Assembly (NCBI RefSeq): GCF_903643065.1
Contig: NZ_CAHJWX010000008.1
Span: forward strand, 1 to 19,844
Length of the DNA: 19,844 nucleotides
Direction: 5' to 3'
DNA from: Sphingomonas bacterium
GTDB taxonomy: Bacteria; Pseudomonadota; Alphaproteobacteria; Sphingomonadales; Sphingomonadaceae
The position numbers and the translations under genes were made by a program. Numbering within the stretch: position 1 is the first letter of the stretch; each line of letters begins with the position of its first letter. Positions 1,453-17,235 of the stretch are shown here, piece by piece. The notes beneath the pieces are model-generated. The model ran no database searches. It was given only the letters and a program-made list of their open reading frames with translations, and had not been told where the DNA came from.

Positions 1453-1466
1453 ATAAGTCTGGGCAC
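1449..1466 (-). repeat. Right terminal inverted repeat of the IS
   Basis: This is the partner of 622-639. It contains the transposase stop codon (1450-1452) and is followed by the second TA copy at 1467-1468, which also forms part of the porin stop codon. Confidence 0.7.
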
Positions 1467-2665: not shown

Positions 2666-2720
2666 CGGTGGTCCTTTCGAATGAGAGCGGAGGTCGGCAG
2701 TAACGTCAGCGGCGACGCGA

Positions 2721-4091: not shown

Positions 4092-4231
4092 GTCATCCTC
4101 CCCCGCCCCCCGGGTCGGCGGCGCAGGACCCAGATAGCCAGCGGAGATTGCCACCGTGCAAGACCCCACAAACGATGAAAGGAACGATTTCCGGCCGACG
4201 GGGCCAAAGCGTTGCAGGGCCGCTACAAGGT
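4092..4231. promoter_or_regulatory. Divergent spacer between antiporter and toxin-antitoxin genes
   Basis: This region should hold the promoter of the leftward antiporter-porin genes and part of the promoter of the rightward antitoxin gene. I could not pick convincing -35/-10 elements. A small dyad, GGAA-N4-TTCC (4181-4192), is the only structure noted here. Confidence 0.4.
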
Positions 4232-4277: not shown

Positions 4278-4511
4278 ATGCGAAGCATCACCAGCCGCGC
4301 CTTTAACCAGGACGTCAGCGCGGCCAAGCGACTGGCCCAACTCGGGCCGGTGTTCGTCACCGATCGCGGCCGCCCTACGCATGTGCTGCTCAGCGTTGAC
4401 ACCTTCCGCCAGATGACCGGCCCGGCCGAGACGATCGTGGACCAGCTCGCAATGACCGAGCCGGTTGGCGCGGAACTCGAGTGGCCCATGGTGACGCGCT
4501 GGAAGCGGTAG
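4278..4511 (+). CDS. Type II antitoxin, Phd/YefM family
   Basis: This is a small antitoxin of 77 residues. It should bind its toxin partner through the C-terminal tail and repress its own operon through the N-terminal fold. The N-terminus MRSITSRAFNQDVSAAKRLAQLGPVFVTDRGRPTHVLLSVDTFRQM has the family's two parts: an initial strand and helix with the conserved xNxD-type turn, then the VxVTxRGxPxHVL strand pair. The tail (AETIVDQLAMTEPVGAELEW) is hydrophobic and acidic, as expected for toxin binding. The ATG at 4278 follows GGGAGGAG directly; the longer frame from 4212 crosses the presumed operators. Its TAG stop overlaps the toxin start by one base (TAGTG), so the pair is translationally coupled. 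Confidence 0.85.
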   Translation: MRSITSRAFNQDVSAAKRLAQLGPVFVTDRGRPTHVLLSVDTFRQMTGPAETIVDQLAMTEPVGAELEWPMVTRWKR

Positions 4512-5008
4512 TGCACCTGCTCGACACTGAAGTGGTCTGGGCCTTGCGGGAGGCGAGTGTAGGACGCTGCGACCCCGCCGTGACGGACTGGGCGACGGCG
4601 CAGCCGCGTACCGGCCTGTTCGTTTCAGCGCTGACGCTGGCCGAGCTGGCCGCCGGTGCCGCCCACATCGCGCCAACGGACCGGGTCGCGGCGGCATCGG
4701 TCCGGCAATGGCTCGACGGACCGGTGGCGACGGCGTTCGATGGCCGCGTGCTGGCCATCGACAGCACTGTAGCCCGACGTGCCGGGATGCTGGGTTATGC
4801 CGATTTGCGCGACGGGCTGCTCGCCGCCACCGCGCTGGAACATGGTCTGACCCTGGCGACGCGCGCGCCGCAGGCGTTCCGCCTCGGCAAGGTCCGCGCG
4901 ATCAATCCTTGGGCCTACCGGCGTGATCGCGAGGCAGAAGGCGGCGACTGGCGCCAGGCGATACACGGGCCGCCCGTCTGGCTCAGGAACCTGTTCGCGC
5001 GGGGCTGA
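4511..5008 (+). CDS. PIN-domain toxin (VapC/FitB-like ribonuclease)
   Basis: This is the putative endoribonuclease toxin paired with the upstream antitoxin; 165 residues from the GTG at 4511, which gives the canonical PIN opening (V/M)HLLDTEVV. An ATG at 4481 would add ten residues and overlap the antitoxin more. Acidic PIN residues seen are Asp5 (LLDT), Glu45 (LTLAELAAG) and Asp101 (RDGLLAATALEHGLTLATR). The usual TRNxxDF motif reads TRAPQAF, so the fourth acidic position is Ala122. The Asn of LLDTN is also Glu7. After the normal C-terminus (INPW) there is an extra tail of about 35 residues rich in Arg, Trp and Gly. The 3' end overlaps the convergent halogenase 1 by 26 bases. Weakened activity is possible but not shown. 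Confidence 0.8.
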   Translation: MHLLDTEVVWALREASVGRCDPAVTDWATAQPRTGLFVSALTLAELAAGAAHIAPTDRVAAASVRQWLDGPVATAFDGRVLAIDSTVARRAGMLGYADLRDGLLAATALEHGLTLATRAPQAFRLGKVRAINPWAYRRDREAEGGDWRQAIHGPPVWLRNLFARG

Positions 5009-6530
5009 GCGATCCGACCGCGCTGAGCGCGTCGACCAGCGCACGGTGCGATGGCAAATCGCGCGCGGCGCGTTCGCCAAACGCACGGATGCGGGAAAAC
5101 TGGCGATCGGCTTCGGCTGCGTGCGGGAAGTCCCCCGCTCCCTCCGCAAGCTCGGTGCGGAAGTCCATGCCGTACAGAATATACTGGTAGTTGAAGTAAG
5201 CGAAGCTCTCGACGTCGAGCTGGAAGTCGAACCGGCTCGGCGGGCGCCAGCGCCATTGGTCGATCAGGTCTCGTAATCGCTCTGGCACGGTCGCCGGGTC
5301 GGCATTGTCGCGCCAGAAAGGCTCCGGTCGGCGGCTGAGGCAGTAATGCAGCTTCAGGAAATTGACGATCGTCGCGTAGCGCGCGCTCATCAGCTCGTTG
5401 AACCGCGCCGCCGACAGGTCGATCGGTCCCTGCCGGGGGAACAACTCGGCAATGATGCCGACCGCCGCCTCGATCAGCACCGTACCGGTCGACTCGAGCG
5501 GTTCCAGAAAGCCGCCCGCCAGGCCGACCGCGACGCAATTGCCGATCCAGGGCCGCTCGCGCCACCCCGGCTCGAAGGCAAGACGGCGCGGCGTCACCGA
5601 GCCGGCGGCGGAACCAAGATAGTCGGCGAGGATCGCCGCGGCGCGGTCGTCGTCGATGTAACGGCTGGCATAGACGCAGCCGACGCCGCGAGCGCCGGCC
5701 AGTCCAATGTCCCAGATCCAACCCGCCTCGTGCGCGGTCGCGACGGTGTAGCTCTCGATCGGCGCGTCGGGGGTGTCGTAGGGCAGCTTGCACGTCAGCG
5801 CTCGGTCGGTGAATAACCGGCCCGCGACCGAGTGGAATGGCGAGGCGAGCGTCCGGCCGATCAGCTCGGCGCGAAAGCCCGTGCAGTCGACGAACAGGTC
5901 CGCCGTCAGCGTCCCCTCATCGGTGCTTACGCCGGCAATCCAGCCGCGCTCGTCCGTCTCCACGGCGCGCACTTGGCCCGACAGATGCTTCACACCGAGC
6001 GCGCGGGCGCGGTCGGCTACCAAGCCAACGAACCGCGCGGCGTCGAAGTGGAAGGCATAGGCAAGCGGGCCGGTGAAATCACCGTCGCCCGGCTGTTTGG
6101 GCGCGCGGCGGGCGGCGGCGACACGGCTTTGCAACGTCATCGCGTCGGCGAAGGACGGCCGCGTCAGCTCATCCTGCCGCAACCAATACGGAATCAGACC
6201 GGTTCCCTCGCCATGGAAGGGCGGCTCGAACGGATGAAGATAGCTGTGTGGCGACCCCTCGCCGGCCGACGATTGCCAGCCCGTGAAGCGAACGCCCTGC
6301 TTGAACGTGGCGGACGCCTCGCGAACGAGGTCGGTCTCTTCAACACCGATGAAGCGCAGCGTGTCGCGGATGGTCGGAAACGTGCCTTCGCCGACGCCGA
6401 TGATGCCGATCTCGGACGATTCCAGCAGGGTGACGCGCACCGAGCCGCCAAGTGCCTTTGCAAGATAGGCGGCGGCGAGCCAGCCGGCAGTACCGCCGCC
6501 GACAATCAGGATTTCACGAACACGCGGCAT
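4983..6530 (-). CDS. Flavin-dependent tryptophan-halogenase-family protein 1
   Basis: This protein belongs to the FADH2-dependent halogenase family, which makes HOCl/HOBr at the flavin and directs it to an aromatic substrate; 515 residues. The FAD motif GGGTAGW begins at residue 11 and GVGEGTFPTIR at 45. The catalytic Lys is Lys77 (SATFKQGVRF, PrnA Lys79 equivalent). The Glu/Ser pair of FLEPLESTG is Glu346-Ser347. The WxWxIP motif reads WIWDIG (271-276), with Gly for Pro. It closely resembles halogenase 3 (FLKLHYCLSRR, DPATVPERL, YQYILYGM) and differs from halogenase 2. The start is uncertain: 6530 gives the normal N-terminus with GAGG 12 bases upstream, and ATGs at 6548 and 6572 are possible. 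It stands apart from the main operon, divergent from the sugar permease. The substrate is unknown. Confidence 0.85.
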   Translation of the reverse strand: MPRVREILIVGGGTAGWLAAAYLAKALGGSVRVTLLESSEIGIIGVGEGTFPTIRDTLRFIGVEETDLVREASATFKQGVRFTGWQSSAGEGSPHSYLHPFEPPFHGEGTGLIPYWLRQDELTRPSFADAMTLQSRVAAARRAPKQPGDGDFTGPLAYAFHFDAARFVGLVADRARALGVKHLSGQVRAVETDERGWIAGVSTDEGTLTADLFVDCTGFRAELIGRTLASPFHSVAGRLFTDRALTCKLPYDTPDAPIESYTVATAHEAGWIWDIGLAGARGVGCVYASRYIDDDRAAAILADYLGSAAGSVTPRRLAFEPGWRERPWIGNCVAVGLAGGFLEPLESTGTVLIEAAVGIIAELFPRQGPIDLSAARFNELMSARYATIVNFLKLHYCLSRRPEPFWRDNADPATVPERLRDLIDQWRWRPPSRFDFQLDVESFAYFNYQYILYGMDFRTELAEGAGDFPHAAEADRQFSRIRAFGERAARDLPSHRALVDALSAVGSLSPARTGS

Positions 6531-6616
6531 GAACAGGTCATACCTCATTCGGTGAGGCGGCGACACCTTCATGGTCTTGCCGGCTTCGGTATGGGCCGCC
6601 TACGATAGCCTCAAGC

Positions 6617-6647
6617 GATTGCCGTTGGAGCGATCGCATCGGCAGTC
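6617..6647. promoter_or_regulatory. Nested dyad in the halogenase 1 / sugar permease spacer
   Basis: GATTGCCG (6617-6624) and CGGCAGTC (6640-6647) form an inverted repeat with one mismatch around a perfect GCGATCGC palindrome (6630-6637). A further GCGATCG occurs at 6681-6687. The position between two divergent genes suits an operator, but no AACGTT site like those at the receptor promoter is present, so the cognate regulator is unknown. Confidence 0.35.
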
Positions 6648-6661
6648 TATGCCGGGATATC

Positions 6662-6669
6662 GGGAGGGG
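6662..6669 (+). promoter_or_regulatory. Ribosome site unusually far from the permease ATG
   Basis: GGGAGGGG is a strong Shine-Dalgarno match but lies 20 bases before the ATG at 6690. Two in-frame ATT codons at 6675 and 6678 lie 5 and 8 bases from it, so a rare ATT start, or leader folding, may be used. Confidence 0.4.
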
Positions 6670-6689
6670 AAGGCATTATTGCGATCGAC

Positions 6690-8009
6690 ATGACAGGTGT
6701 GGCCGGTGCCGAAGCGCCTGCGTCAGGCGACGCCGCGCATGGCTATGACGCGCCCGATCTGCGCGTGTTCGTCTTCGCGCTGTTCTTTATCTTCGGCGGG
6801 ATCACCAGCCTCAACGATGTGATCATTCCCAAGCTGAAGGAGCTGTTCACACTCAGCAACTTTCAGGCGTCGCTGGTCCAGGTGTGGTTCTTCATCGCCT
6901 ATGCGGTGATCGGCATCCCGGGGGCGAAGCTGGTGCGGCGGGTCGGCTACATGCGTGGCGCCGTCGCGGGGCTGGTGACGATGATCGCGGGCTGCCTGCT
7001 GTTCATCCCGGCGAGCCGGACAGCGACCTTCGCGGTGTTCCTGCTCGCCTACTTCGTGCTGGCGAGCGGCGTCGTCATCGTCCAGGTCGTCGCTAACCCG
7101 CTCATCAGCCTGCTCGGCAGGCCCGACACCGCGCACAGCCGGCTGACCTTCGCGCAGGCGTTCAATTCGCTCGGCACGACGATCTTCCCCTATTTCGGCG
7201 CGATCCTGATCCTCGGCGGCCTCGCCGCGGTCACCGCCACGCAGCTGTCGGGTGTCGCGCTCGATGCCTATCGCACCAACGAAACGCGGGCGATCGTGCA
7301 CGGCTATCTCGGCATCGCCGCCGCGCTGGCCATCGTCGCGGCGGCGGTCTGGCTGTTCCGAAACCGGTTGACGGGCGAGCGGCACGACGTGTCCAGCTTC
7401 GCGCAGGGTCTGGCACTCCTGAAGAGAACGCGGTTCGGGTTCGGTGCGGCCTGCATCTTCCTTTATGTCGGTGCCGAGGTGGCGATCGGCAGTTTCCTGG
7501 TCGGCAATCTCACTCAGCCGACCATGCTCGGCCTGTCGTCGGAGGCGGCGGGCAAGCTGATCCCCTTCTATTGGGGCGGCGCGCTGGTCGGCCGCTTCGT
7601 CGGCTCGGGCGTGCTGCGGATACTGAACCCGGGCAAGGTGCTGGCGTTCAGCGCCGCCGGCGCGATCGTGCTGGTGCTCGTCGCGATCGGCACCACCGGC
7701 ACGTCGGCGGGCTATGCGCTGCTCGCCGTGGGGTTGATGAACTCGATCATGTTCCCGACGATCTTCAGCTTGGCGTGCGAGCGGCTCGGCCGGCGCACCA
7801 CCGACGGATCGGGGATCATCAACGTCGCGATTGCCGGGGGCGCGATGATCCCGGCGCTGTACGGCAAGATCGCCGACGTCGTGAGCCTGCGCCTCGCGCT
7901 CTTCCTGCCGATCGCCTGCTACGCCGTCATCCTCGCCTACGGCCTGTACGCCCGCCGCCCGGCACCGGAGGTCGCCGTGCCCGACGACTCGCACGGCAGC
8001 TTGGCCTGA
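6690..8009 (+). CDS. Sugar:proton MFS permease, FucP/GluP (FHS) family
   Basis: This is an inner-membrane major-facilitator permease of 439 residues with about 12 hydrophobic segments. The FHS family imports fucose, glucose, galactose and related sugars by proton symport. Signatures are the first-helix phrase FALFFIFGGITSLNDVIIPKLKELF (residues about 30-54), the GAKLVRRVGYMRG loop, VVIVQVVANPLISLLGRP and FAQAFNSLGTTIFPYFGA, all characteristic of FucP/GluP proteins, plus NSIMFPTIFSLACERLG in the second half. It has a hydrophilic N-terminal tail of about 25 residues. It diverges from halogenase 1 and meets the LacI gene tail to tail with only two bases between stop codons. In the locus it would take up the monosaccharide released by the GH3 enzyme. 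The exact sugar is not readable. Confidence 0.88.
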   Translation: MTGVAGAEAPASGDAAHGYDAPDLRVFVFALFFIFGGITSLNDVIIPKLKELFTLSNFQASLVQVWFFIAYAVIGIPGAKLVRRVGYMRGAVAGLVTMIAGCLLFIPASRTATFAVFLLAYFVLASGVVIVQVVANPLISLLGRPDTAHSRLTFAQAFNSLGTTIFPYFGAILILGGLAAVTATQLSGVALDAYRTNETRAIVHGYLGIAAALAIVAAAVWLFRNRLTGERHDVSSFAQGLALLKRTRFGFGAACIFLYVGAEVAIGSFLVGNLTQPTMLGLSSEAAGKLIPFYWGGALVGRFVGSGVLRILNPGKVLAFSAAGAIVLVLVAIGTTGTSAGYALLAVGLMNSIMFPTIFSLACERLGRRTTDGSGIINVAIAGGAMIPALYGKIADVVSLRLALFLPIACYAVILAYGLYARRPAPEVAVPDDSHGSLA

Positions 8010-8011
8010 GA

Positions 8012-9070
8012 CTAGCCGGCGCTGGGGGGCGGTGCCGTCGAGCCCCTGATCGCAAGGTGACACGGCACCGCGAGCGGCGCGCCCGAGGGCATCTCCCCCT
8101 GCTCGGCCTGGACGATCAACTCGACCGCGCGCTCGGTGATTTCGGCGATCGGCTGGACGACGGCGGTGAGCGGAGGCTGCGCAAAGCGTACGATCGGTGT
8201 GTCGTCGAAACTGACGATCGACAGGTCGCTGGGGACGCTCATCCCGCGCCCGCGCGCGAGGTCCAGCGTCGCCAGCGCCATCTGGTCGCTGCTGGCGATG
8301 ATCGCGGTCGGCGGCCGCTCGCCGTCGAGCAGTATCATTGCGCAGCGCCGCCCCGACGCCCAACCGAAGTCACCACGGCACAGCAGGCCTTCGTCGGTCA
8401 ACCCTGCCGCCGCCATTGCCGCCCGCCACCCGGCGATGCGCCATTCGCTCAGTTCATATTCCTCCGATCCCGCAATGAAACCGATGTGGCGATGGCCGAG
8501 CGCGACGAGATGCTCGGTCGCCAGCCGCGCCGCGTGATCGTCATCCATCGTCAGCAGAAAGCCGGGGCCGGGTGCTAGCGAGCCGATCCGCGCAATGGCG
8601 ATATGATGGCTGGCGAGCAGGTCGACGATCGCACGGTTCTGCGAATGCGGCGGCGTCAGCAGGACCCCGTCCGGCTGCAGCGCGGCGATCACGGCCGCAA
8701 GCTCGCCTTCGATATGGTCGCTATGCGTGTCGACCAACTCGACGATCATGCGATAGCCCTGACGCGCACAGGTAAGCATACCGCCAAGCAGCATTTGGTC
8801 GAGCCAGTTGCTGCCGTCACGCCGTCGCCAATCGGCGATGGTACGGTCGCGGTCGTTAAATGCCATGATCAGCCGCGAGCGCGAACCGCCCATCCGCTGC
8901 GCCGCGATCGAGGGGACATAGCCGAGCCGGTCGATCGCCTCCTGCACGCGCCGGGTCATTTCGGGGCGGACGTTAGGCTCGTTGTTGATGACCCGGCTGA
9001 CGGTCTGCAGCGACACGCCCGCATCGGCAGCGACGTGCCGGATGGTGACCGCCTGCCGTCGTCGCGCCAC
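8012..9070 (-). CDS. LacI-family transcriptional regulator
   Basis: This is a sugar-responsive DNA-binding regulator of 352 residues, the usual LacI length. The N-terminal helix-turn-helix is textbook (VTIRHVAADAGVSLQTVSRVINN, residues 8-30), followed by the hinge region (EAIDRLGYVPSIAAQRM) and a periplasmic-binding-protein-like sensor domain (PDGVLLTPP, GHRHIGFIAG, PTAIIASSDQMALATLDLARGRG, DLSIVSFDDTP). The start is GTG at 9070, only five bases after the halogenase 2 stop, so it is the last gene of the five-gene operon and has no room for its own promoter there. It probably controls the receptor, the glycosidase and, through the operon, its own synthesis; the AACGTT sites at 17146 and 17222 are the obvious candidate targets. 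The effector is presumably a sugar. Confidence 0.92.
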   Translation of the reverse strand: MARRRQAVTIRHVAADAGVSLQTVSRVINNEPNVRPEMTRRVQEAIDRLGYVPSIAAQRMGGSRSRLIMAFNDRDRTIADWRRRDGSNWLDQMLLGGMLTCARQGYRMIVELVDTHSDHIEGELAAVIAALQPDGVLLTPPHSQNRAIVDLLASHHIAIARIGSLAPGPGFLLTMDDDHAARLATEHLVALGHRHIGFIAGSEEYELSEWRIAGWRAAMAAAGLTDEGLLCRGDFGWASGRRCAMILLDGERPPTAIIASSDQMALATLDLARGRGMSVPSDLSIVSFDDTPIVRFAQPPLTAVVQPIAEITERAVELIVQAEQGEMPSGAPLAVPCHLAIRGSTAPPPSAG

Positions 9071-9075
9071 CCCGA

Positions 9076-10557
9076 TCAGGCTCGTGCAGCGCCGCAGTAA
9101 TGCGTCACATAGGCGTCGTGCGTGGGCAGGCCGGCGACCGTGCGCGTCACCTTGTCGCGCAGCGTTGCCAGCACCTGCGCCAGCTCGGGATCAGACATCT
9201 TGGCGGCGATCGGGTGATGGCTCTGCGGCATGATGCCCTGTCCCATCATCACCTGCACCCAACTATTCTCGGCGAACAGCTCCTCGTGGCGGCGGAAGAC
9301 GCGCCCGGTCTCGCGGAACAGTTCGATCTTCTGGGTTAGGCTGTCGGGGATCGGCATCGACGCGCAATAGCGCCAGAAGCCGCTGTCGCGCCGTTCGGTC
9401 GCCTTGTAGTGGAGGATCAGGAAATCGCGGATCTGCGCCATGTCCTCCAGCTGCTGGTCGTTGAACTCGGCGACATCGCGTTGGGAGATCGTGCCGGCGG
9501 GCAGCATCCGCAACAGGCGCAGCACCGCGCGCTGGATGAGGTGGATCGAGGTCGACTCGAGCGGCTCCATGAACCCGCCCGACAGGCCGATGGCGATGCA
9601 GTTGCGATGCCATTGCCGCCGCCGCGCGCCGGTCGTGAACTTGATATGGTTGGGCTCGGTCAGCACCTTGCCCTCGAGATTGCCGAGCAGCCGCTCCAGC
9701 GCCTCGTCGCGCTCCAGGTAGCGGCTGCACCAGACGATGCCGTTGCCGGTGCGGTGCTGCAGCGGGATGCGCCATCGCCAGCCCGCATCGTGCGCCATCG
9801 CGCGGGTATAGGGGACGGGCGCGCCGACGCTCTCCGTCTGCACCGCGATCGCGCTGTCGTTGGGCAGCCAGTGGGTCCAGTCGTCGAAGCCGGCGTGGAG
9901 TGCGCCCTCGATCAGCAGTGCGCGAAAGCCGGTGCAGTCGAGGAACAGGTCGCCCTCGATCCGCGCACCGCCCTCCAGGGTAAGAGCGGCGATGTCGCCG
10001 CTCTCGCCGTCGAGCTCGACCTTGGCGATGCGGCCCTCGATCCGCGTCGCGCCGTTCTTCTCCGCGAACTGCCTGAGGTACGCCGCATAGCGTGTCGAAT
10101 CGAGCTGGTAGGCGTAACTCATGCCTTCGTCAGGCAGATGCGCGAAGCGCGCGCCCAACGCCGCCTTCAGCTCCAGGCAATACTCGTCATAGGATTCGCG
10201 ATGGCCTTTGGTCAGGCCCTGCAGCCAGAAATGCTGGAAACCGGCCGACCAGTGATCCTTGCCGGTCAGCCCGAAGGAATGAAAGTAGCGATCGCCGCCG
10301 TCACGCCAGCCGTCGAACAGGATGCCGAGCTTGAAGGTCGCCTGTGTCGCGCGCATGAAATCGGCTTCGGCGATGCCCAGCACGCGGTTGAACAGCGCGA
10401 GCGGCGGGATGGTCGATTCGCCGACGCCGACAGTACCGATCGCGTCCGACTCGACCAGCGTCACCTCGGCGACTGGACCGAGCGTGTAAGCGATCGCGGC
10501 GGCGGCCATCCAGCCGGCGGTGCCGCCGCCGGCGACGACGATGCGGCGCGGATTCAT
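9076..10557 (-). CDS. Flavin-dependent tryptophan-halogenase-family protein 2
   Basis: Of the three halogenases in the window this is the most canonical: 493 residues. It has the FAD motif GGGTAGW at residue 10, GVGESTIPPL near 44, the catalytic Lys76 in ATFKLGILF and Glu334-Ser335 in GFMEPLESTS. The WxWxIP motif is complete (WRWRIP, residues 260-265); it is taken to separate halogenases from flavin monooxygenases. The sequence between motifs differs markedly from halogenases 1 and 3 (SFGLTGKDHWSAGFQHFW, GNGIVWCSRYLERDEALERL), so it belongs to another clade. The ATG at 10557 overlaps the cupin stop as ATGA, and I see no separate ribosome site, so translation is probably coupled. Longer upstream starts run through the cupin gene. 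A dedicated flavin reductase is not in the window. The substrate is unknown; indole-type aromatics are a family-based guess. Confidence 0.9.
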   Translation of the reverse strand: MNPRRIVVAGGGTAGWMAAAAIAYTLGPVAEVTLVESDAIGTVGVGESTIPPLALFNRVLGIAEADFMRATQATFKLGILFDGWRDGGDRYFHSFGLTGKDHWSAGFQHFWLQGLTKGHRESYDEYCLELKAALGARFAHLPDEGMSYAYQLDSTRYAAYLRQFAEKNGATRIEGRIAKVELDGESGDIAALTLEGGARIEGDLFLDCTGFRALLIEGALHAGFDDWTHWLPNDSAIAVQTESVGAPVPYTRAMAHDAGWRWRIPLQHRTGNGIVWCSRYLERDEALERLLGNLEGKVLTEPNHIKFTTGARRRQWHRNCIAIGLSGGFMEPLESTSIHLIQRAVLRLLRMLPAGTISQRDVAEFNDQQLEDMAQIRDFLILHYKATERRDSGFWRYCASMPIPDSLTQKIELFRETGRVFRRHEELFAENSWVQVMMGQGIMPQSHHPIAAKMSDPELAQVLATLRDKVTRTVAGLPTHDAYVTHYCGAARA

Positions 10558-11588
10558 TGCTGGAGCTGCCGCAGGAGATAGCCGCGCATTCGCCCCGCGC
10601 CCTCCGCCGTCATCGGCGCGAGCACGCCGCGGCCGCCCTCGGGAAGGTGGGCGGCGGCCGCACCGGCATCGCCAAACACGTAATAGTCGAACAGGTCGCG
10701 CCAATGCGCGCGATCCGCCTCGGGCAGATCACGGATCGCCATCATCGCATGGTTGAGCGCGTCCTGCGGGTTGCCCAGCCAGCGCGGCGTGGTGCGCCAC
10801 CAATAATTCACCAGCACATTGAACGGCGCCAGCCCCTCGACATGGTGCCACCACATCGACGGGATGTAGAGCGCATCGCCGGCCTCCAGCTCGGCGACCT
10901 GCGCGTGCGCCAGCGCGTCGACGAAGCGGGGAAAACGGCCAAGGTCGGGGGCGTAGAAGTCTACCATGCTCACCGCCCGTCCGGCCGGCGTGTTGTCGAC
11001 CGGGCCGAGGTACAGGTTGCGGAACTGCTCGCGCGGGAACAGTGTAAATCTCCGTCGCCCGACCGCGACGCAAGCGAGATTGTCGGGGGTGTCGTTGTGC
11101 GCCGCGACGCGGGTGCGCGTGCCGATCCAGATGCTGGCGAGCGGTTCGCGGTCGCAAAGGTCGACATGGTTCGCCTCGTGCAGCCCGGTGAAATACCCCT
11201 TCACGTCGATTGACGCGAGATAGACCGGCGGGGCATCGGCGCGGTCCTCGAACTGTCCGATGCGGCCGAATATTTCAGGCAACGCCGCGCGCATCGTGCG
11301 GAAGTTCATCCCCATCGCGTCGTCGTAGAACAGCCGCCCGCCATCGGTCGCGGGCGCGCCGACCGATACGGTGAACGGCATGCCGCGGGCGTAGGACAGG
11401 AGATAGGCGCGCGCCTCCGCGCTCGACCGGCGGCCGGCGGCGACGAGCGGCCAATCGGCGACCAGCCTGCGCACGACGAAGGGGCGGTCGGCGGCGCGCA
11501 GGCGTGCGTCGAGGTCGGTGGCATTATCGACTATCACCTCCGGAATGACCGGCAGGCCGGCGAAGATACCGGGATCGGCCTCAGCCAT
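10554..11588 (-). CDS. Cupin-like / JmjC-type Fe(II) oxygenase (FIH-like, Cupin_8)
   Basis: This is a 344-residue cupin_8/JmjC-type protein, a family of Fe(II)/2-oxoglutarate oxygenases that hydroxylate proteins or small molecules. The metal triad is visible as His164-x-Asp166 (AAHNDTPDNLACV) and a distal His in IPSMWWHHVEGL (His248/249), very like the WWHH segment of FIH. The family phrases GRRRFTLFP and LEAGDALYIP are present, and ASIWIGTRTR precedes the first His as in FIH-like enzymes. The gene starts inside the SapC gene (ATGGCTGA overlap, 8 bases) and ends in the halogenase 2 start (ATGA). This tight coupling suggests that the cupin, SapC and halogenase 2 are made in fixed ratio. Comparable cupin genes are reported beside TonB receptors and halogenases in related bacteria. 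The substrate is unknown. Confidence 0.88.
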   Translation of the reverse strand: MAEADPGIFAGLPVIPEVIVDNATDLDARLRAADRPFVVRRLVADWPLVAAGRRSSAEARAYLLSYARGMPFTVSVGAPATDGGRLFYDDAMGMNFRTMRAALPEIFGRIGQFEDRADAPPVYLASIDVKGYFTGLHEANHVDLCDREPLASIWIGTRTRVAAHNDTPDNLACVAVGRRRFTLFPREQFRNLYLGPVDNTPAGRAVSMVDFYAPDLGRFPRFVDALAHAQVAELEAGDALYIPSMWWHHVEGLAPFNVLVNYWWRTTPRWLGNPQDALNHAMMAIRDLPEADRAHWRDLFDYYVFGDAGAAAAHLPEGGRGVLAPMTAEGAGRMRGYLLRQLQQ

Positions 11589-12309
11589 GCGCCGCCCCGG
11601 CGCGAACCCTGGCGTTCTTGCGCGCGATCAGCTCCGCCACGTTCGCCAGCGACGCCAGCGCCATGAACACGGGCATCAGATGCCCAGCCGCGTGCAGCTC
11701 GCCCAACGCGGCGGCATCAAGCGCCTGCAACCGATCCTCGTCGATGCCGTGGTAGCCGACCAGACGATTGATCGACCCGTTGTCCAGCGTGATCTCCAAG
11801 GTCAGCGGCTCCAGCAGCATGTGGCGGGCCAGCGCGACGAAGAAGTCGTCGAGGCCGCGCCAGCCGGCGTCGAGTTCGCCGAGCTGTTCGGCGACGGCGT
11901 CGAGATAGGGGCTGGGCCGACCGAGTTCATCGAAGACCGCGACCCCTTCGTTCCCTCGCGCGATGCGCGGACTGTCGAGATCGACATGCACCTGCCGCTC
12001 ACCCTGCTCGTCGGCCTGGCGACCGATCAGGAACGGCTGGATTCGCATCGCCAACGGGCGATGGCGCGCATCCCAATGGTTTCCGTCGAGGAACAGGTTT
12101 TCCCCCGGCTCGAAGCCGAACATCGCCAGCGCGTGATAGCCGTCGCGCTCGGGGGTCAGGCGGAACAGGATGGGATAGTTGTTCTGCACGCGGCGGAATT
12201 CGCTTGGCACGACCACGCACGACATGACCGCATCACCGCGGTCCGCTCCCGCCGCGGGGTCAACGCGCAAGCCGCTGTGCGCCTCGGCGGTGAGGATGGC
12301 GTGCGTCAT
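11581..12309 (-). CDS. SapC-family protein
   Basis: This is a 242-residue SapC-family protein, named after a Campylobacter S-layer gene; its biochemical role is not established. Family features seen are the N-terminal VVVPSEFRRVQNNYPILF (about residues 32-49), the ALAMFGFEPGENLFLDGNHWDARHRPLAMRIQPFLIG segment split over 61-97, the acidic DLDSPRI and the central NGSINRLVGYHGIDEDRLQAL. No signal peptide or membrane helix is seen, so it is probably cytoplasmic. The ATG at 12309 overlaps the TAA stop of halogenase 3 by one base (TAATG), and the 3' end overlaps the cupin start. SapC, cupin and halogenase genes recur together near TonB receptors in sphingomonads and Caulobacter relatives, so a shared task is likely but undefined. 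Confidence 0.88.
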   Translation of the reverse strand: MTHAILTAEAHSGLRVDPAAGADRGDAVMSCVVVPSEFRRVQNNYPILFRLTPERDGYHALAMFGFEPGENLFLDGNHWDARHRPLAMRIQPFLIGRQADEQGERQVHVDLDSPRIARGNEGVAVFDELGRPSPYLDAVAEQLGELDAGWRGLDDFFVALARHMLLEPLTLEITLDNGSINRLVGYHGIDEDRLQALDAAALGELHAAGHLMPVFMALASLANVAELIARKNARVRAGAAHG

Positions 12310-13880
12310 TAGGACGTTTGTTCCAGAACGGCGGGCGGCTGCTCGGCCCGCAGCGCATCGAGATAGGCGCGGATGGGAGGCAAGGAGGCCGCAAGCGTCC
12401 GCCCACGCTGCGCGATCGGATCGAGCGGTGGTGGCGGCGCGTCGCGGATCGGCGTCGCGACGGGGGTGGAGGCGTTCATGCCGTAGAGGATGTACTGATA
12501 GCTCGCGGCCGGAAATATCTCGTCGGCCATCGGCAGGTCGGCGCGGGTCGGCGGCCGGTTCGCCCAGAGCTGGAAGAGATCGGCGAGCCGCGCCGGCACC
12601 GACGCCGGATCGCGATGCGCGCGCCAATAAGGTTCGGTGCGGCGGCTGGGCAGGTAATGCAGCTTCAGGAACTCGACGATCCGGTCCCAGCGATAGCGGA
12701 ACAGCTCGTTGAAGCGCGTCGCAATCAGCGCCATGGTCGACCGCGTCGGCCAGTCGGCGATTAGTGCGTCGAGCGACAACTCGACGGTGACGATGGCCGA
12801 CGCCTCCAGCGGCTCCAGAAAACCTGCCGACAGACCGATCGCCAGGCAATTGCCAACCCAGAAGCGCTCGCGATGCCCGGAGCGAAAGGTCAGCCGCCGC
12901 GGCGTCGGCATCGCTACGTCACCGAGATAGGCGGCGAGAGTCGTCGCCGCCGCGTCGTCGCTCATGTGGGCCGACGAATAGACGCAGCCGACGCCGCGCC
13001 GCGTCGGTAGGCCGATGTCCCAGATCCATCCCGCCGCGTGCGCGGTGGCGTCGGTCTGTGCCAAGATGGGGCTGTCGGCGGCGACTGGCACCTGCACCGC
13101 GAGCGCGCGGTCGTTGAACAGCACGTCGCCGCGATCGAGGAACGGCACGTCACCGACGAGCAGCGCGGCATGCCCCGAACAGTCAAGGAACAGGTCGCCC
13201 GCGACGTGGCCGTGCATGCGGGTGTCCACCGAGGCGATGGTGCCGTCCTCGCGCCGCTCCACTCCGGTAACGTGGTCACGCAGATGACGCACCCCCAAGC
13301 GGCTGGTCGCATGACGCATCAGCAGCGCCGCCAGCTTGGCCGCATCGACGTGGTAGCCGTAATTCAGCGCACCCGCATAGTCGGGCATTGCCCGTTGACG
13401 GGGTGCAAGACCGAGACGTGCGGCTCGCGGCTGCGCGCTGACCGCATCGGCAAACGTGGGTTCGCCCGGTAGCGCCTGCCATGCCGCGACCATCGCGGCG
13501 GGATCGCCGCCTAGCGGTGGCGTAAACGGATGCATATAGGCGTCATCGACGGACCCGGTAGCCCAGCCGATAAAGCGCGAGCCATGCTTGAACGAGGCGT
13601 CGCAGGCGGTGAGGAACTCCGCCTCGCCAATACCGATCCGCTCCAGCGTGCCGCGCATCGTCGGCCAAGTACCCTCGCCGACGCCGATCGTCGCCACCTC
13701 GGGTGATTCGACCAGCGTTACCTCGATCGGGTAAGGCACGTCGGTACGGGCGGCCGCCGCGATGCGACACGCGGCAAGCCAGCCGGCGGTACCACCACCG
13801 ACGATGATGACTCGCGAGATCGTCGCGCCGCCGTCTTCCGACGTAGCCGCAGAAATGGACCGAGAACCGGCCGTGTGCAC
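12309..13880 (-). CDS. Flavin-dependent tryptophan-halogenase-family protein 3
   Basis: First gene of the five-gene operon; 523 residues from a GTG at 13880, chosen because AAGGAA (13889-13894) lies eight bases upstream. A second GTG at 13886 is too close to that site, and the TTG at 13964 lies inside the receptor terminator. The FAD motif GGGTAGW begins at residue 28, GVGEGTWPTMR at 67, and the catalytic Lys is Lys98 (DASFKHGSRF). WxWxIP reads WIWDIG (285-290), as in halogenase 1. The family's EPLES reads EPLEA: the catalytic Glu is kept (Glu359) but the adjacent Ser is Ala360. It shares FLKLHYLPSRR, DPASVPARL and YQYILYGM with halogenase 1, pointing to an old duplication. Its tail is joined to SapC by TAATG. 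The substrate is unknown. Confidence 0.85.
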   Translation of the reverse strand: MHTAGSRSISAATSEDGGATISRVIIVGGGTAGWLAACRIAAAARTDVPYPIEVTLVESPEVATIGVGEGTWPTMRGTLERIGIGEAEFLTACDASFKHGSRFIGWATGSVDDAYMHPFTPPLGGDPAAMVAAWQALPGEPTFADAVSAQPRAARLGLAPRQRAMPDYAGALNYGYHVDAAKLAALLMRHATSRLGVRHLRDHVTGVERREDGTIASVDTRMHGHVAGDLFLDCSGHAALLVGDVPFLDRGDVLFNDRALAVQVPVAADSPILAQTDATAHAAGWIWDIGLPTRRGVGCVYSSAHMSDDAAATTLAAYLGDVAMPTPRRLTFRSGHRERFWVGNCLAIGLSAGFLEPLEASAIVTVELSLDALIADWPTRSTMALIATRFNELFRYRWDRIVEFLKLHYLPSRRTEPYWRAHRDPASVPARLADLFQLWANRPPTRADLPMADEIFPAASYQYILYGMNASTPVATPIRDAPPPPLDPIAQRGRTLAASLPPIRAYLDALRAEQPPAVLEQTS

Positions 13881-13888
13881 CTGCACTG

Positions 13889-13894
13889 TTCCTT
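13889..13894 (-). promoter_or_regulatory. Ribosome site deciding the halogenase 3 start
   Basis: Read on the minus strand this is AAGGAA, eight bases before GTG at 13880. No ATG gives the expected N-terminus, so this site is the main support for a GTG start. Confidence 0.5.
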
Positions 13895-13944
13895 CAGAGT
13901 GCCCGACAAGGACGGTACATGGACATATCGCCGCCGGCCGGTAA

Positions 13945-13973
13945 AGGCCACCCTCGTGTACCAAGGGTGGCCT
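13945..13973 (-). terminator. Hairpin terminator after the TonB receptor gene
   Basis: AGGCCACCCT (13945-13954) pairs perfectly with AGGGTGGCCT (13964-13973) around a 9-base loop, giving a 10-bp GC-rich stem starting nine bases after the receptor stop. On the minus strand it is followed by a short T tract (TTTA). The weak T tract suggests partial termination, so some receptor transcripts may read into the halogenase operon. Confidence 0.75.
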
Positions 13974-13981
13974 CCCCTAAG

Positions 13982-16900
13982 TCAGAAAGCGAGACGAACC
14001 CCTGCTGAATAGCGCGCATCGAGCTTCTGCACCAGATTGATGTTACTCTCCGACCGGAGATGTTGGCTACGGTTTTCACCGGTAATGTTGATACCTTCGA
14101 AGAACACTGCGACGTTCTTGGTGATGGCATAGCTTGAGCTGAGATCAAGCTGTCCGAAGGAATCGGTGTAGGTCGGGTTCACTCCGGACGACGACAGAAA
14201 CCCGTCCCGCCAGTTGTAGGCAGCGCGGACCTGAATGCCATTCTTGTCATAGAACAGCACCGCGTTGGCGCTGTTGGACAGGCCTTCGATCGCAAACTGC
14301 GCCGGTGAGACGCTGGCAGGCAGCGTGTTGTTATAGTCACGATTGCCATTGACAATCGTGTAGTTAAGAATCGTACCAAATCCAGTTTGCCAAAAGTTGT
14401 GCTGGATCGCAAACTCGAAACCGTTGAAAGTCGCCGTCTGATCGCTGTTACTTGGCGTCGTGATAACGAAATTGACCGAAGGGTCGCCCGGACCGGCGAG
14501 CAACTGTCCCTGCGCCCCGACGAACGCAGGAAAGTTGGTTTGGTAGTAATTCTGTATTTGCGCAATCGTGGCGTTGGCACCAAGTGCGGAGAGCGCCGCC
14601 TGGTAGCGCGGTCCATTCGTGGTCACGCCGTTAAAGGTCGTCGTCGGCGCGGCGATGCCAGGTATCGCCGTGTTGAGTTGCGTCGAACTGATGTAGTTCG
14701 ACACATCCTTGTGGAAATACCCGATCGAAATATAGCTCTCGTTGCCGTAATACCATTCTGCCGACAGATCGACGTTCTTCGATTTGAAGGGGATGAGGCC
14801 GGGGTTGCCGACCGAACCGGTGCCGCCGCCGACGCGGAACAGCGTGTCGAGCCGCCGCCCGCCCTGCAGATTATCGTAGGTCGCGCGCGTAATCGTGTGG
14901 CTGTACGACGCGCGCAGCTTGACGCCTGCCAAAGGTTGAATGTCGAAGTCCACCGCTGGCAGCCAGTTGTCGTACGAACCCTTGAACGTAGTGAAGCCCT
15001 GGCCGTTGAACAGGACATTGAACTCATTCTGAGAATTTTGCTGCCCGCCGACCGGCGTCGGCACCAGCGCGGTCGCCGACACGTCGGTGCTTTCATAGCG
15101 AACGCCGGCGATCAGATGACCCGGACGCGAGAACAGGTCAAACTTGCCATTGAATTGGAAATAGGGCGAGATTGTCTTTTCATGCACGCCGGAGTCAGTG
15201 GTGTAAGGCAATAGACATTGCAGGTTGCCGCCGCACGTCTTGTACACCCGATCGGTCAGCGCGAGCGCGGTCGGTAGGTCGAAGGTGTAGAACGCTTTGA
15301 CGATGTTAGGATCGTTGGCGCCGCTGATCCCCGAGAACTTGTCTGGAATGCTGACAAGATTGAAGATGCTGTCTGGAAGCAGCGTCGCCGCCGCAGCGCG
15401 CTGGGCGTCCGTGCCGCCGCCGGCACCGCCCCAGGTGTCGTTCTGCAGCACGCTGTAGGCGGAGCGAACCTTGTTGTCGGTGTACTCGAAACCCCAGTCG
15501 AGGCTGTCGAGGAAGCCGTCATGGTGGTCGTAATGACCCGACAGCTTGATCTGGTTGATCTCGTCGCGCTCGTAGCTGTTGCGGAACGCGTTGCCAGTCG
15601 GCACAATGTTCGCCGGGTTTAGCGGATCGATGCCCGGATACATGGCGAACGAGATGACGGGCAGCTTGTTCGCGAAGTTGATCGTCTGCGTCTGGATGCC
15701 GAACACCGCCGTGCCGAACGAATTGCTGTTGCCATAGGGGCTGTTGGGCTTGGATTCAGCGGTCGAGTGATGACCGTCGAGCGCGATCGTGACGCCGCCC
15801 GGGCCAGCCCAGGTCAGATTGCCGCCGGTCGACTTGTTTTCGCTGCGATAGGCGGTCTGCGAGGCCGAATAGGCGAGATCCTTGGTCTCGGCGGCTTGGA
15901 AGCGCTCGGTGTAGAAGATGGGGCCGGCAATCGGTCCGTTGGTCCAGGCGCTCGACGTGTCGTTGTGGTTGTACCAAATGCCGACGCTGTCGTCGCGGAT
16001 GGCGACGGTGTTGCGCGAATAGGTGAAGTCGACCGTGCCGGTCAGGCTGTCGGTCGGTCGGAATTGCAGAACCGCTTGACCGTTGATGCGCTGGCGTCGG
16101 CCGTCCACGACATCGTAGCCGGCGTTCTGCGGCACCTGATAGACGTCGGTCGCCTTGGGCCGGTTCTGGATGTTGCGGTAGTCGCTAAGATTGCCGGTCG
16201 CGGGATTCGCGACCTGACCGGGCTGGGCGAGCGAGCCCCAATTGTTCTCCGAACCGAGATAGCCGTCGCGAAAGCCGACGTTCACTGAATTCTGACTGAA
16301 GTGGCGCACCTGGTAGGCGCCGTCGATCAGGATGCCGATCCGGTCGTCGGCGAATGTATCGGAGAAGATGCCGGAGATCTCCGGCGTCACGTCCTTGTGG
16401 CCGTTCTGCGACGTGTCGTAGACGCCCTTGGCGGTCAACGAGCCGCGGATGCCCATCTTGTCGAACGGGCGCGGCGTGCGGATGTTGATCGTAGCCCCGA
16501 TCCCACCCGAGGGCACCGTCGCACGGCCCGACTTGTAGACCTCCAGCGCCGCGACGCCTTCCGACGCGAGATTGGCGAAATCGAACGATCGCGAGGCCGG
16601 CGCGCCGTTGCCGTCGCCAATCGTCGTCGTCGGCATCTGCCGGCCGTTGAGGACCACGAGGTTGTAGTTCGGACCGAAGCCGCGGACGGTGACGAACTGC
16701 CCCTCGCCGTTCTGGCGATCGATCGACACACCCGTGATACGCTGCAGCGACTCGGCAAGGTTGGTATCGGGGAACTTGCCTATCTCCTCGGCGGAGATGG
16801 CGTCGACGACGCCCTGCCCGTCACGCTTCAGTTCGATCGAGCGACGAAGGCTGGCGCGGATGCCAGTGACGACGACATCGTCGGCGACGGGCGCACCCAC

Positions 16901-17104
16901 ACTCGCGTTGGTGCCGTCGGTAACCGCGGTGCTCTGGGTGGTTGAGGCGGTGTTGCTGCCGGTCGGCGGCGTTTGCGAAGGACCTGGCTGACCGACCGTG
17001 CTGGACGCATCCTGCGCAGCCGCCGCCGTCGCGAAGGTCGCCATGGCCAGCGCCGACGCGCCGATCGCGAACCGTGCAGCCACGCGGCCGGAGAATCCCT
17101 TCAT
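13982..17104 (-). CDS. TonB-dependent outer-membrane receptor (probable carbohydrate transporter)
   Basis: This 1040-residue active outer-membrane transporter is powered by TonB-ExbBD. It has a Sec signal peptide (about residues 1-30, ending TAAAA-QD), then a Ser/Thr/Pro/Gln-rich linker of some 45 residues, a TonB box (DDVVVTGIRASL, 75-86), a plug domain (VDAISAEEIGKFPDTNLAESLQR, VTVRGFGPNYNLVVLNGRQM, SGRATVPSGGIGATINIRTPRPF) and a long 22-strand-type barrel ending in Phe (SAGVRLAF). The length and the KFPDTNLAESLQRITGVSI plug phrase fit the Xanthomonas/Caulobacter receptor subfamily often tied to plant or algal saccharides. ATG 17104 follows AAGGAGGGG. The longer open frame to 18598 is an antisense artefact of the GH3 gene. 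It diverges from the GH3 gene across two operator-like sites, and its ligand is presumably the GH3 substrate. Confidence 0.93.
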   Translation of the reverse strand: MKGFSGRVAARFAIGASALAMATFATAAAAQDASSTVGQPGPSQTPPTGSNTASTTQSTAVTDGTNASVGAPVADDVVVTGIRASLRRSIELKRDGQGVVDAISAEEIGKFPDTNLAESLQRITGVSIDRQNGEGQFVTVRGFGPNYNLVVLNGRQMPTTTIGDGNGAPASRSFDFANLASEGVAALEVYKSGRATVPSGGIGATINIRTPRPFDKMGIRGSLTAKGVYDTSQNGHKDVTPEISGIFSDTFADDRIGILIDGAYQVRHFSQNSVNVGFRDGYLGSENNWGSLAQPGQVANPATGNLSDYRNIQNRPKATDVYQVPQNAGYDVVDGRRQRINGQAVLQFRPTDSLTGTVDFTYSRNTVAIRDDSVGIWYNHNDTSSAWTNGPIAGPIFYTERFQAAETKDLAYSASQTAYRSENKSTGGNLTWAGPGGVTIALDGHHSTAESKPNSPYGNSNSFGTAVFGIQTQTINFANKLPVISFAMYPGIDPLNPANIVPTGNAFRNSYERDEINQIKLSGHYDHHDGFLDSLDWGFEYTDNKVRSAYSVLQNDTWGGAGGGTDAQRAAAATLLPDSIFNLVSIPDKFSGISGANDPNIVKAFYTFDLPTALALTDRVYKTCGGNLQCLLPYTTDSGVHEKTISPYFQFNGKFDLFSRPGHLIAGVRYESTDVSATALVPTPVGGQQNSQNEFNVLFNGQGFTTFKGSYDNWLPAVDFDIQPLAGVKLRASYSHTITRATYDNLQGGRRLDTLFRVGGGTGSVGNPGLIPFKSKNVDLSAEWYYGNESYISIGYFHKDVSNYISSTQLNTAIPGIAAPTTTFNGVTTNGPRYQAALSALGANATIAQIQNYYQTNFPAFVGAQGQLLAGPGDPSVNFVITTPSNSDQTATFNGFEFAIQHNFWQTGFGTILNYTIVNGNRDYNNTLPASVSPAQFAIEGLSNSANAVLFYDKNGIQVRAAYNWRDGFLSSSGVNPTYTDSFGQLDLSSSYAITKNVAVFFEGINITGENRSQHLRSESNINLVQKLDARYSAGVRLAF

Positions 17105-17145: not shown

Positions 17146-17159
17146 TGATAACGTTCCCC
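17146..17159. promoter_or_regulatory. LacI-type operator candidate 1 (TGATAACGTTCCCC)
   Basis: An AACGTT-centred imperfect palindrome, 42 bases before the receptor start. It differs from the ideal TGGGAACGTTCCCA at three of 14 positions. It lies just downstream of a consensus-like TTGACA on the minus strand, where a repressor would block transcription. Confidence 0.55.
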
Positions 17160-17221: not shown

Positions 17222-17235
17222 TGAGAACGTTCCCA
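17222..17235. promoter_or_regulatory. LacI-type operator candidate 2 (TGAGAACGTTCCCA)
   Basis: A near-perfect palindrome; only one base departs from TGGGAACGTTCCCA. It lies about 50 bases before the GH3 start and its centre is 76 bp from that of candidate 1, so both divergent genes could be controlled together, perhaps by DNA looping. Confidence 0.6.

Follow-up and report, generated by a model that had tools for sequence, protein, structure and literature searches.

A TonB-Dependent Receptor with Companion Halogenases, SapC and an FIH-like Cupin in a Sphingomonad Sugar Locus

Layout of the Locus and Its Predicted Regulation

The gene cassette considered here lies on contig NZ_CAHJWX010000008.1 of a Sphingomonas bacterium (assembly GCF_903643065.1, fragmented and 72% complete), and the window analyzed is the whole of this stretch of 19,844 nucleotides, contig C8 in our numbering. 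Scans of the window for open reading frames (ORFs) and for Pfam and NCBIfam families located every gene named in a preliminary description of this DNA, at the coordinates given below, and confirmed its central feature, namely a tightly packed minus-strand run in which a TonB-dependent receptor of the TIGR01782 subfamily is followed by halogenase 3, SapC, a Cupin_8 protein, halogenase 2 and a LacI-family regulator.

The receptor (13982..17104, minus strand, 1040 residues) is the first gene of the cassette. Its ATG is at 17104, an N-terminal export signal was judged by eye, and it carries Plug and barrel domains and matches TIGR01782 at 587.4 bits against a cut-off of 310; in a comparison with PDB sequences, it gave two distinct matches, both to the colicin I receptor and in the plug region only. 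It is followed on the same strand by halogenase 3 (12309..13964; PF04820, E 2e-111), whose start is uncertain (TTG at 13964 or later), SapC (11581..12309; PF07277, 242 residues, E 4.6e-59, 200.1 bits against a cut-off of 28.9), the Cupin_8 protein (10554..11588; PF13621, E 7.6e-64), halogenase 2 (9076..10557; PF04820, E 4.8e-184) and, as the last gene of the run, the LacI-family regulator (8012..9070; Pfam and NCBIfam). Three of the four junctions between these five genes overlap: the halogenase 3 stop and the SapC start share 1 base (TAATG), SapC and the cupin share 8 bases, and the cupin and halogenase 2 share 4, while a gap of 5 bases separates halogenase 2 from LacI. Converging on LacI is an MFS sugar permease gene of the TIGR01272 (gluP) type (6690..8009, plus strand; 270.7 bits against a cut-off of 202.55), and the further halogenase that had been described as divergent from it, halogenase 1 (4983..6572, minus strand; PF04820, E 2.9e-122), is indeed so arranged. 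A glycoside hydrolase (GH) of family GH3 (17285..19552, plus strand; Pfam and NCBIfam) diverges from the receptor.

A receptor, a sugar regulator with a likely site, a permease and a glycoside hydrolase thus stand together, as in a carbohydrate uptake locus. We read the locus as a putative LacI-controlled uptake locus in which the TonB receptor appears to travel with a dedicated tailoring cassette, and the imported substrates are probably oligosaccharides of the beta-glucan type. A natural-product cluster was considered and rejected, as there are no carrier-protein or assembly-line genes among the 15 window proteins scanned.

Two LacI-type boxes lie in the divergent promoter between the receptor and GH3, TGATAACGTTCCC at 17146..17158 and TGAGAACGTTCCC(A) at 17222..17235 (both given on the plus strand), and there is no box at the promoter of halogenase 1 and the MFS gene. 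Scanning from 400 bases before to 150 bases after the start of the receptor frame in 77 regions from related loci, we found an AACGTT core in 52, where 0.08 cores per region are expected from the same loci. The core mostly sits within a palindrome, TGWGAACGTTCWCA in sphingomonads and TGGAAACGTTTCCA in several betaproteobacteria; a few cores, including one each in L216 and L226, stand outside any palindrome. Over the full window, a looser pattern is not unusual, with 5 matches where 2.3 are expected and as many in 24 of 200 shuffles, and thus the case for an operator rests on the conserved position. On this basis, a predicted LacI-type operator at the receptor start, which would tie the receptor to sugar regulation, is supported.

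A GC-rich hairpin of 27 bases (13946..13972, minus strand) is found just 3' of the receptor stop, before halogenase 3. Stems of at least 7 bp follow the stop in 61 of 105 receptor genes, as compared to 5 of 105 when each sequence is randomly shuffled once; these hairpins are GC-rich and alike in position, and varied in sequence. Such a hairpin may set receptor output above enzyme output. As it lies between the receptor and halogenase 3, read-through is something that we infer, and a single transcript through the receptor and the enzymes is likely.

Distribution of the Cassette and Its Tie to the Receptor

SapC is present in 111 of 299 sampled proteobacterial genomes. We compared 100 SapC stretches from 78 genomes, hand-picked from the listed rows with a preference for long contigs, with 40 control stretches drawn from the same set of sampled genomes. 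Around SapC, a halogenase was found 29 times, a cupin 21 times and a receptor 27 times, whereas the controls held one halogenase, one receptor and neither SapC nor a cupin. All three partners accompany SapC in 21 loci and none of them in 70, with the remainder made up of halogenase and receptor (five), halogenase only (three) and receptor only (one). A search with the cupin alignment gave 585 relatives, the best 80 of which (the named loci) span sphingomonads, Hyphomonadaceae, Massilia, Duganella, Xanthomonas, Lysobacter, Catenovulum, Porticoccaceae and others. These 80 cupin loci contain the receptor in 77 cases, SapC in 73, a halogenase in 71, LacI in 58 and GH3 in 49.

The make-up of the cassette was counted in the 77 loci of more than 7.8 kb. 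In what follows, the A halogenase is the one that precedes SapC (the position by which the count defines it), and the B halogenase the one that follows the cupin. The full set, receptor-A-SapC-cupin-B, occurs in 54 loci, and 11 differ from it by the absence of A; the rest are receptor-SapC-cupin (four), receptor-cupin (three), receptor-cupin-B (two), receptor-A-SapC-cupin (one) and the cupin alone (two). A scripted test of gene order was passed by 71 of the 77, and among the six failures, four (L212, L213, L217 and L228) do have a same-strand upstream receptor, beyond the coordinate limits of the script, with no receptor in the other two (L223 and L235). Where a receptor locus lacks SapC (five cases), receptor and cupin have no halogenase between them; a dependence of the A halogenase on SapC is nevertheless not claimed, as the definition of A makes the 77-locus count circular in this respect. 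In its minimal form, in Duganella (L226, L231 and L238), the receptor is directly followed by the cupin, with neither SapC nor halogenase. The core therefore consists of receptor and cupin, with SapC and the two halogenases as extras that are missing from some loci. The cassette recurs widely in Proteobacteria and is no local oddity. The preliminary description also stated that such halogenases had been found beside TonB receptors in Brevundimonas and Xanthomonas, and this holds in part: the arrangement is present in two Xanthomonas arboricola loci (L240 and L251), but the word TonB occurs zero times in the main texts of the BrvH and Xcc4156 papers.

To examine the tie in reverse, we searched 99 genomes of the order with a profile of the cassette receptor (E up to 1e-150, weakest match 3.4e-236); as this profile was built from cassette receptors, the result concerns this subfamily and not any TIGR01782 receptor. 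A cassette-type cupin lies within 4.1 kb of all 25 receptors of the subfamily, and a receptor lies within 5 kb of all 25 of the strongest cupins among 42 cupin matches, with the split into 25 and 17 placed at a gap in E-value after the list was seen. This receptor subfamily and this cupin subfamily are inseparable. Only one of the 17 weaker cupins is within 5 kb of a cassette receptor. Thirteen of them are in genomes covered by the halogenase list; a listed halogenase is found within 5 kb of nine of the thirteen, and for seven of the nine another TIGR01782 receptor is also at most 5 kb away. We note that the weaker cupins, together with that at L257:319-1383, form a second cupin group, often found beside halogenases and other TIGR01782 receptors. 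At the level of genomes, a TIGR01782 receptor over cut-off is present in 46 of the 55 with a strong halogenase (E <1e-80), compared to 22 of the 244 others (odds ratio 52, computed ignoring kinship), and among the matches listed, 78 of 150 halogenases are within 10 kb of a receptor and 35 within 1 kb. Related sets seem to serve other TIGR01782 receptors, and the second cupin group hints at several parallel sets in one cell.

PF04820 is matched eight times in the host genome, twice at the end of a contig, alongside a single SapC and two Cupin_8 matches, and three receptors there pass the TIGR01782 cut-off: that of the window, one on contig C74 with a halogenase as the very next gene, and one on contig C64, where there is no halogenase match. 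Elsewhere in the assembly, a halogenase pair lies near GH18 and a GntR regulator (C202), and one halogenase stands beside a DUF6445 protein (C355). DUF6445 (PF20043), a family name without a function, recurs by these halogenases, in 6 of 26 sampled cassettes and 1 of the 80 named loci (examples are L114:12805-13509 and L256:2082-2786).

What surrounds the cassette is far more varied. Sugar-type genes accompany 67 of the 80 cupin loci and 19 of the 26 sampled cassettes, as compared to 2 of the 40 controls; GH16 is present in 38 of the 80, and the full set recurs with the beta-glucan genes GH16, GH3 and GH1. Thirteen cupin loci, three of them on contigs shorter than 7.8 kb, have no sugar-type marker in reach, such as those in Duganella by elongation factor G, in Catenovulum by LeuA and in Xanthomonas arboricola by a DPPIV peptidase. 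Five marine loci, three without a sugar-type marker, combine RPE65, an AMP-ligase and a methyltransferase, sometimes with a thiolase. In L228, L229, L239, L242 and L253 (SAR92, Porticoccaceae and Cellvibrionales), the cassette is followed by a methyltransferase, HxlR, an RPE65-type oxygenase, a nitronate monooxygenase and the AMP-ligase, and in some of them by a thiolase gene as well. Sets without the cupin are found with GH20 in three sampled loci, one of which also has SIS and amidohydrolase genes (N-acetylglucosamine genes), and with an agarase-like CBM protein in L115; these chitin- and agar-type sets have more divergent receptors.

The constant element across the loci is the receptor, and as the surroundings change while receptor and enzymes stay, the comparison points to the receptor or to a shared product. 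The preliminary description had proposed that halogenation is coupled to the receptor and to sugar genes, which is supported by the receptor count (77 of 80 against 1 of 40 controls), the sugar-type count and the operator-like core; the contrary case, of the same gene block lying equally often away from TonB and sugar genes, was sought by neighbourhood comparison and not found. Its suggestion of an aromatic group on an imported glycoside fares less well. The full set also occurs by beta-glucan or RPE65 genes and the cupin-less sets by chitin or agar genes, and with settings this varied, an aromatic group on one glycoside explains little. It could also be argued that the cassette genes are passengers, carried by an old receptor operon and acting on neither receptor nor ligand, given that gene order can persist by descent and that related genomes are not independent. 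We regard this as very improbable, since distant proteobacteria share the linkage while their neighbouring genes vary, and it holds for 25 of 25 both ways within the order.

Among other features of the window, a PIN-domain protein (4481-5008, plus strand, E 4.8e-07) shares 26 bases with the 3' end of halogenase 1, an IS4/5-type transposase at 644-1452 is split into two overlapping frames (DUF4096, then DDE_Tnp_1), and an Alginate_exp-type porin and a Na/H exchanger lie to the left of the locus (1466-4130, minus strand). No tRNAs and no Rfam families over threshold were found in the window.

The Enzymes and Their Candidate Substrates

All three window enzymes are putative flavin-dependent halogenases that match PF04820 over the whole domain (409, 613 and 374 bits, cut-off 21) and have the GxGxxG motif and the catalytic Lys and Glu. 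The A and B enzymes, in their fixed positions before SapC and after the cupin, are two subfamilies, with a mean identity of 32% between them in sampled pairs as compared to 54% and 58% within each type. The WxWxIP motif is present in 83 of 89 B sequences and none of 70 A sequences, all 70 of which have WxWDI in its place. In the window, halogenase 2 is of the B type and has WxWxIP, while halogenase 3, of the A type, and halogenase 1, which is nearer to A (mean identity 42%) than to B (32%), have WIWDIG. The closest solved structures are Xcc4156 (6y1w, E 7.5e-200), 9luq and BrvH (6frl) for halogenase 2, 9ltb and 2pyx for halogenase 3, and, more weakly, 9ltb, 9lu2 and 2pyx for halogenase 1.

The absence of WxWxIP from the A type raises the question of whether one or both flavin enzymes, and foremost A, are monooxygenases or oxidases that do not halogenate. 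A precedent is found in QhpG, which the accessible text of its paper describes as a monooxygenase with a halogenase-like structure (PMC7876137). We consider this decidedly unlikely for the present enzymes, as the catalytic Lys (69 of 69 A, 87 of 88 B) and Glu (67 of 69 A, 88 of 88 B) are kept in nearly all sequences of both types, and the nearest solved relatives of the A type (9ltb, 2pyx and 9lu2) bear the name tryptophan halogenase in their database entries, which is a label rather than an assay result.

The cupin is a putative FIH-like oxygenase of the JmjC type. Among solved structures it is nearest to that of FIH, a protein hydroxylase (E 7.4e-18), and in the alignment to FIH, the iron ligands H164, D166 and H248 (HxD...H) are invariant in 22 of 22 cupins.

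In the case of SapC, a tree of 174 sequences (quick method) places 97, including that of the window, in a purely cassette clade, while 71 lone SapC sequences fall in another clade that also holds 6 cassette-labelled rows, three of them from chitin-type loci. SapC as a general mark of the cassette is thus rejected, with 71 of the 100 sampled SapC loci lacking a halogenase and belonging to this other clade. The structural model of SapC is confident (predicted local distance difference test, pLDDT, 95.7), and a limited comparison of it with the PDB gave no clear match. Export or outer-membrane genes lie near 26 of the 71 lone SapC loci as compared to 6 of 40 controls (p 0.017, with the gene families picked after the loci were seen), and these neighbours include SecA-like proteins (10 of 71 against 0 of 40). 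HlyD/OEP-type export genes, two-partner ShlB transporters and ORFs of more than 1200 residues (17 of 71 against 3 of 40) are also found near lone SapC; such loci include L086, L088, L092, L098, L077, L055, L062, L065, L078 and L080. These neighbourhoods give hints of an export-linked role for the SapC family.

Taking these features together, we tentatively favour, at rather less than an even chance, a reading in which the cassette would modify a peptide or protein inside the cytoplasm, with the receptor precursor as its likeliest substrate. This reading draws on the constant receptor partner, the related sets by other receptors, a cupin whose nearest relative is a protein hydroxylase, and SapC near export genes. 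It also draws on the open active sites of the relatives of the B type, for which the available parts of the BrvH and Xcc4156 papers report that free tryptophan is not acted on and suggest peptides, the native substrates not being known to the authors (PMC7336383), and on the precedent of QhpG, which modifies a protein Trp in the cytoplasm prior to export. In such a scheme, the flavin enzymes and the iron/2-oxoglutarate enzyme, in which no export signal was seen by eye, would meet the receptor precursor in the cytoplasm, still unfolded and not yet exported, with an aromatic side chain being halogenated or hydroxylated, an Asn, His or Asp being hydroxylated, and SapC serving as a substrate-holding or export-linked partner. 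A more specific version, in which receptor-specific halogenases and the hydroxylase, with SapC holding the substrate, would brominate and hydroxylate residues that are mostly special to cassette-linked receptors, while other TIGR01782 receptors in that cell are served by related sets of their own, we rate as somewhat unlikely. Columns special to cupin-linked receptors do exist (in window numbering, for example, N148, N341, H445, H902 and W558), in a contrast that is weak, the contrast receptors being few (10 non-adjacent in one comparison and 15 not cupin-linked in another) and one of them (L107) lying beside a cassette receptor. N803, W377, W387 and W965 are likewise retained by cupin-linked receptors.

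The same enzymes could instead act on the ligand, the main idea of the preliminary description, with an imported aromatic or indole-bearing compound, free or sugar-bound, being halogenated and hydroxylated in the cytoplasm for use or detoxification. We hold this account to be possible, if doubtful, and place it next after protein tailoring. The aromatic residues of the receptor subfamily are nearly constant across what we take to be alpha-, beta- and gammaproteobacteria, as would be required if they bound a common ligand; LacI and sugar genes lie next to the cassette, and the RPE65 and AMP-ligase neighbours in the five marine loci could fit aromatic or isoprenoid breakdown. GH16 and GH3, the commonest partners, however, act on plain beta-glucan, the chitin and agar settings have no evident aromatic, and there are no aromatic-ring breakdown genes among the neighbour proteins scanned, which are a minority of all neighbours. 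BrvH does brominate indole, but with low activity, and its authors, in the part of the paper available, doubt that indole is the native substrate (PMC5945002).

A third possibility is a signal or defence compound, that is, a diffusible halogenated product derived from indole, a peptide or some other central metabolite and made only when sugar is present. The operator-like sites do join the enzymes to uptake, and the B-type relatives prefer bromide and accept indole, as far as the BrvH and Xcc4156 texts available describe. On the other side, no efflux or assembly genes are found among the recurring neighbour clusters identified, separate sets by separate receptors in one genome are hard to reconcile with a single signal, and the gap from the receptor to the next gene (median 105 bases, maximum 315, n=98) leaves little room there for a precursor peptide gene. 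We consider this explanation unlikely, and rank it ahead of an absence of halogenation.

Several observations weigh against the tailoring of the receptor precursor. What the comparison establishes is gene content and order, the two-way linkage of receptor and cupin, the conserved catalytic residues and a conserved operator-like site; the cytoplasmic action, the protein substrate, the choice of the receptor as that substrate, the part played by SapC, any modified residue or product and all of the reactions are predictions. In 22 of 22 cupins, Arg179 stands where FIH has its 2-oxoglutarate-binding Lys; this Arg could serve in its stead, and we do not file the cupin as an FIH orthologue. The QhpG family model scores the window enzymes at 24.6 to 39 bits, against a cut-off of 240. 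SapC, the B halogenase or both are missing in 12 of the 77 loci (two of which also lack the receptor), and the corresponding reactions are thus not always needed. The conserved Trp of the receptor are kept in seven halogenase-free loci, except for one Tyr in L216 and one in L187, and so there is no sign that these Trp exist for halogenation, which as the reason for their conservation finds no support. Furthermore, special columns are expected of any receptor subfamily, a shared ligand would also account for a conserved receptor, and the RPE65 loci could equally indicate an aromatic ligand. Finally, 45 of the 71 lone SapC loci have no export gene of the families sought, and the export theme is modest, post hoc and taken from another SapC clade.

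Relation to Known Systems

The halogenase group, the SapC family, the cupin family and the receptor class are already known, whereas the joint module, its two-halogenase layout, the two-way tie to the receptor and the operator were not found in the open-licence literature. A search there, with those terms only, found SapC, halogenase and TonB brought together in no paper; the words TonB and SapC are both absent from the available part of PMC8269204, and PMC11337851, as far as its available part goes, has a different subject. The fixed partnership narrows the search for the halogenase substrate from any aromatic to the receptor, its ligand or one inducible product, and if the receptor itself is modified, this would be a new kind of outer-membrane protein modification. 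It also bears on SapC, a widespread family for which no assigned activity turned up in the papers found.

TonB/LacI carbohydrate uptake loci are known in sphingomonads and xanthomonads, and the present locus resembles them in its receptor, LacI, MFS permease, GH3, often GH16, and LacI-type sites near the receptor start. It differs in the genes that separate receptor from regulator, which code for halogenases, SapC and a hydroxylase. The cupin resembles FIH and the JmjC protein hydroxylases as a Cupin_8 protein with HxD...H aligned to FIH, and differs from them in the Arg for Lys replacement; the match spans residues 161-274 only, and the cupin is known from its sequence alone. SapDEF is a secretion system. 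The cassette SapC shares its family name with the S-layer locus sapCDEF of Campylobacter fetus, mentioned in the accessible text of PMC4943207, a likeness of name alone between sequences that were not compared, and it forms a clade of its own among the SapC sampled. QhpG and QhpC offer a parallel in that QhpG, by the same partial account as above, is a halogenase-like flavoprotein acting on protein Trp in the cytoplasm before export; the cassette enzymes lie far under the QhpG cut-off, and the scan of window proteins gave neither a quinoprotein nor a radical SAM partner. The closest parallel to halogenase 2 is provided by BrvH and Xcc4156, with which it aligns over nearly its whole length and shares GxGxxG, the Lys, the Glu and WxWxIP. 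Those enzymes are described singly, in main texts that contain neither of the words TonB and SapC, whereas in the cassette the B-type enzyme is accompanied by an A-type partner from a separate subfamily that lacks WxWxIP.

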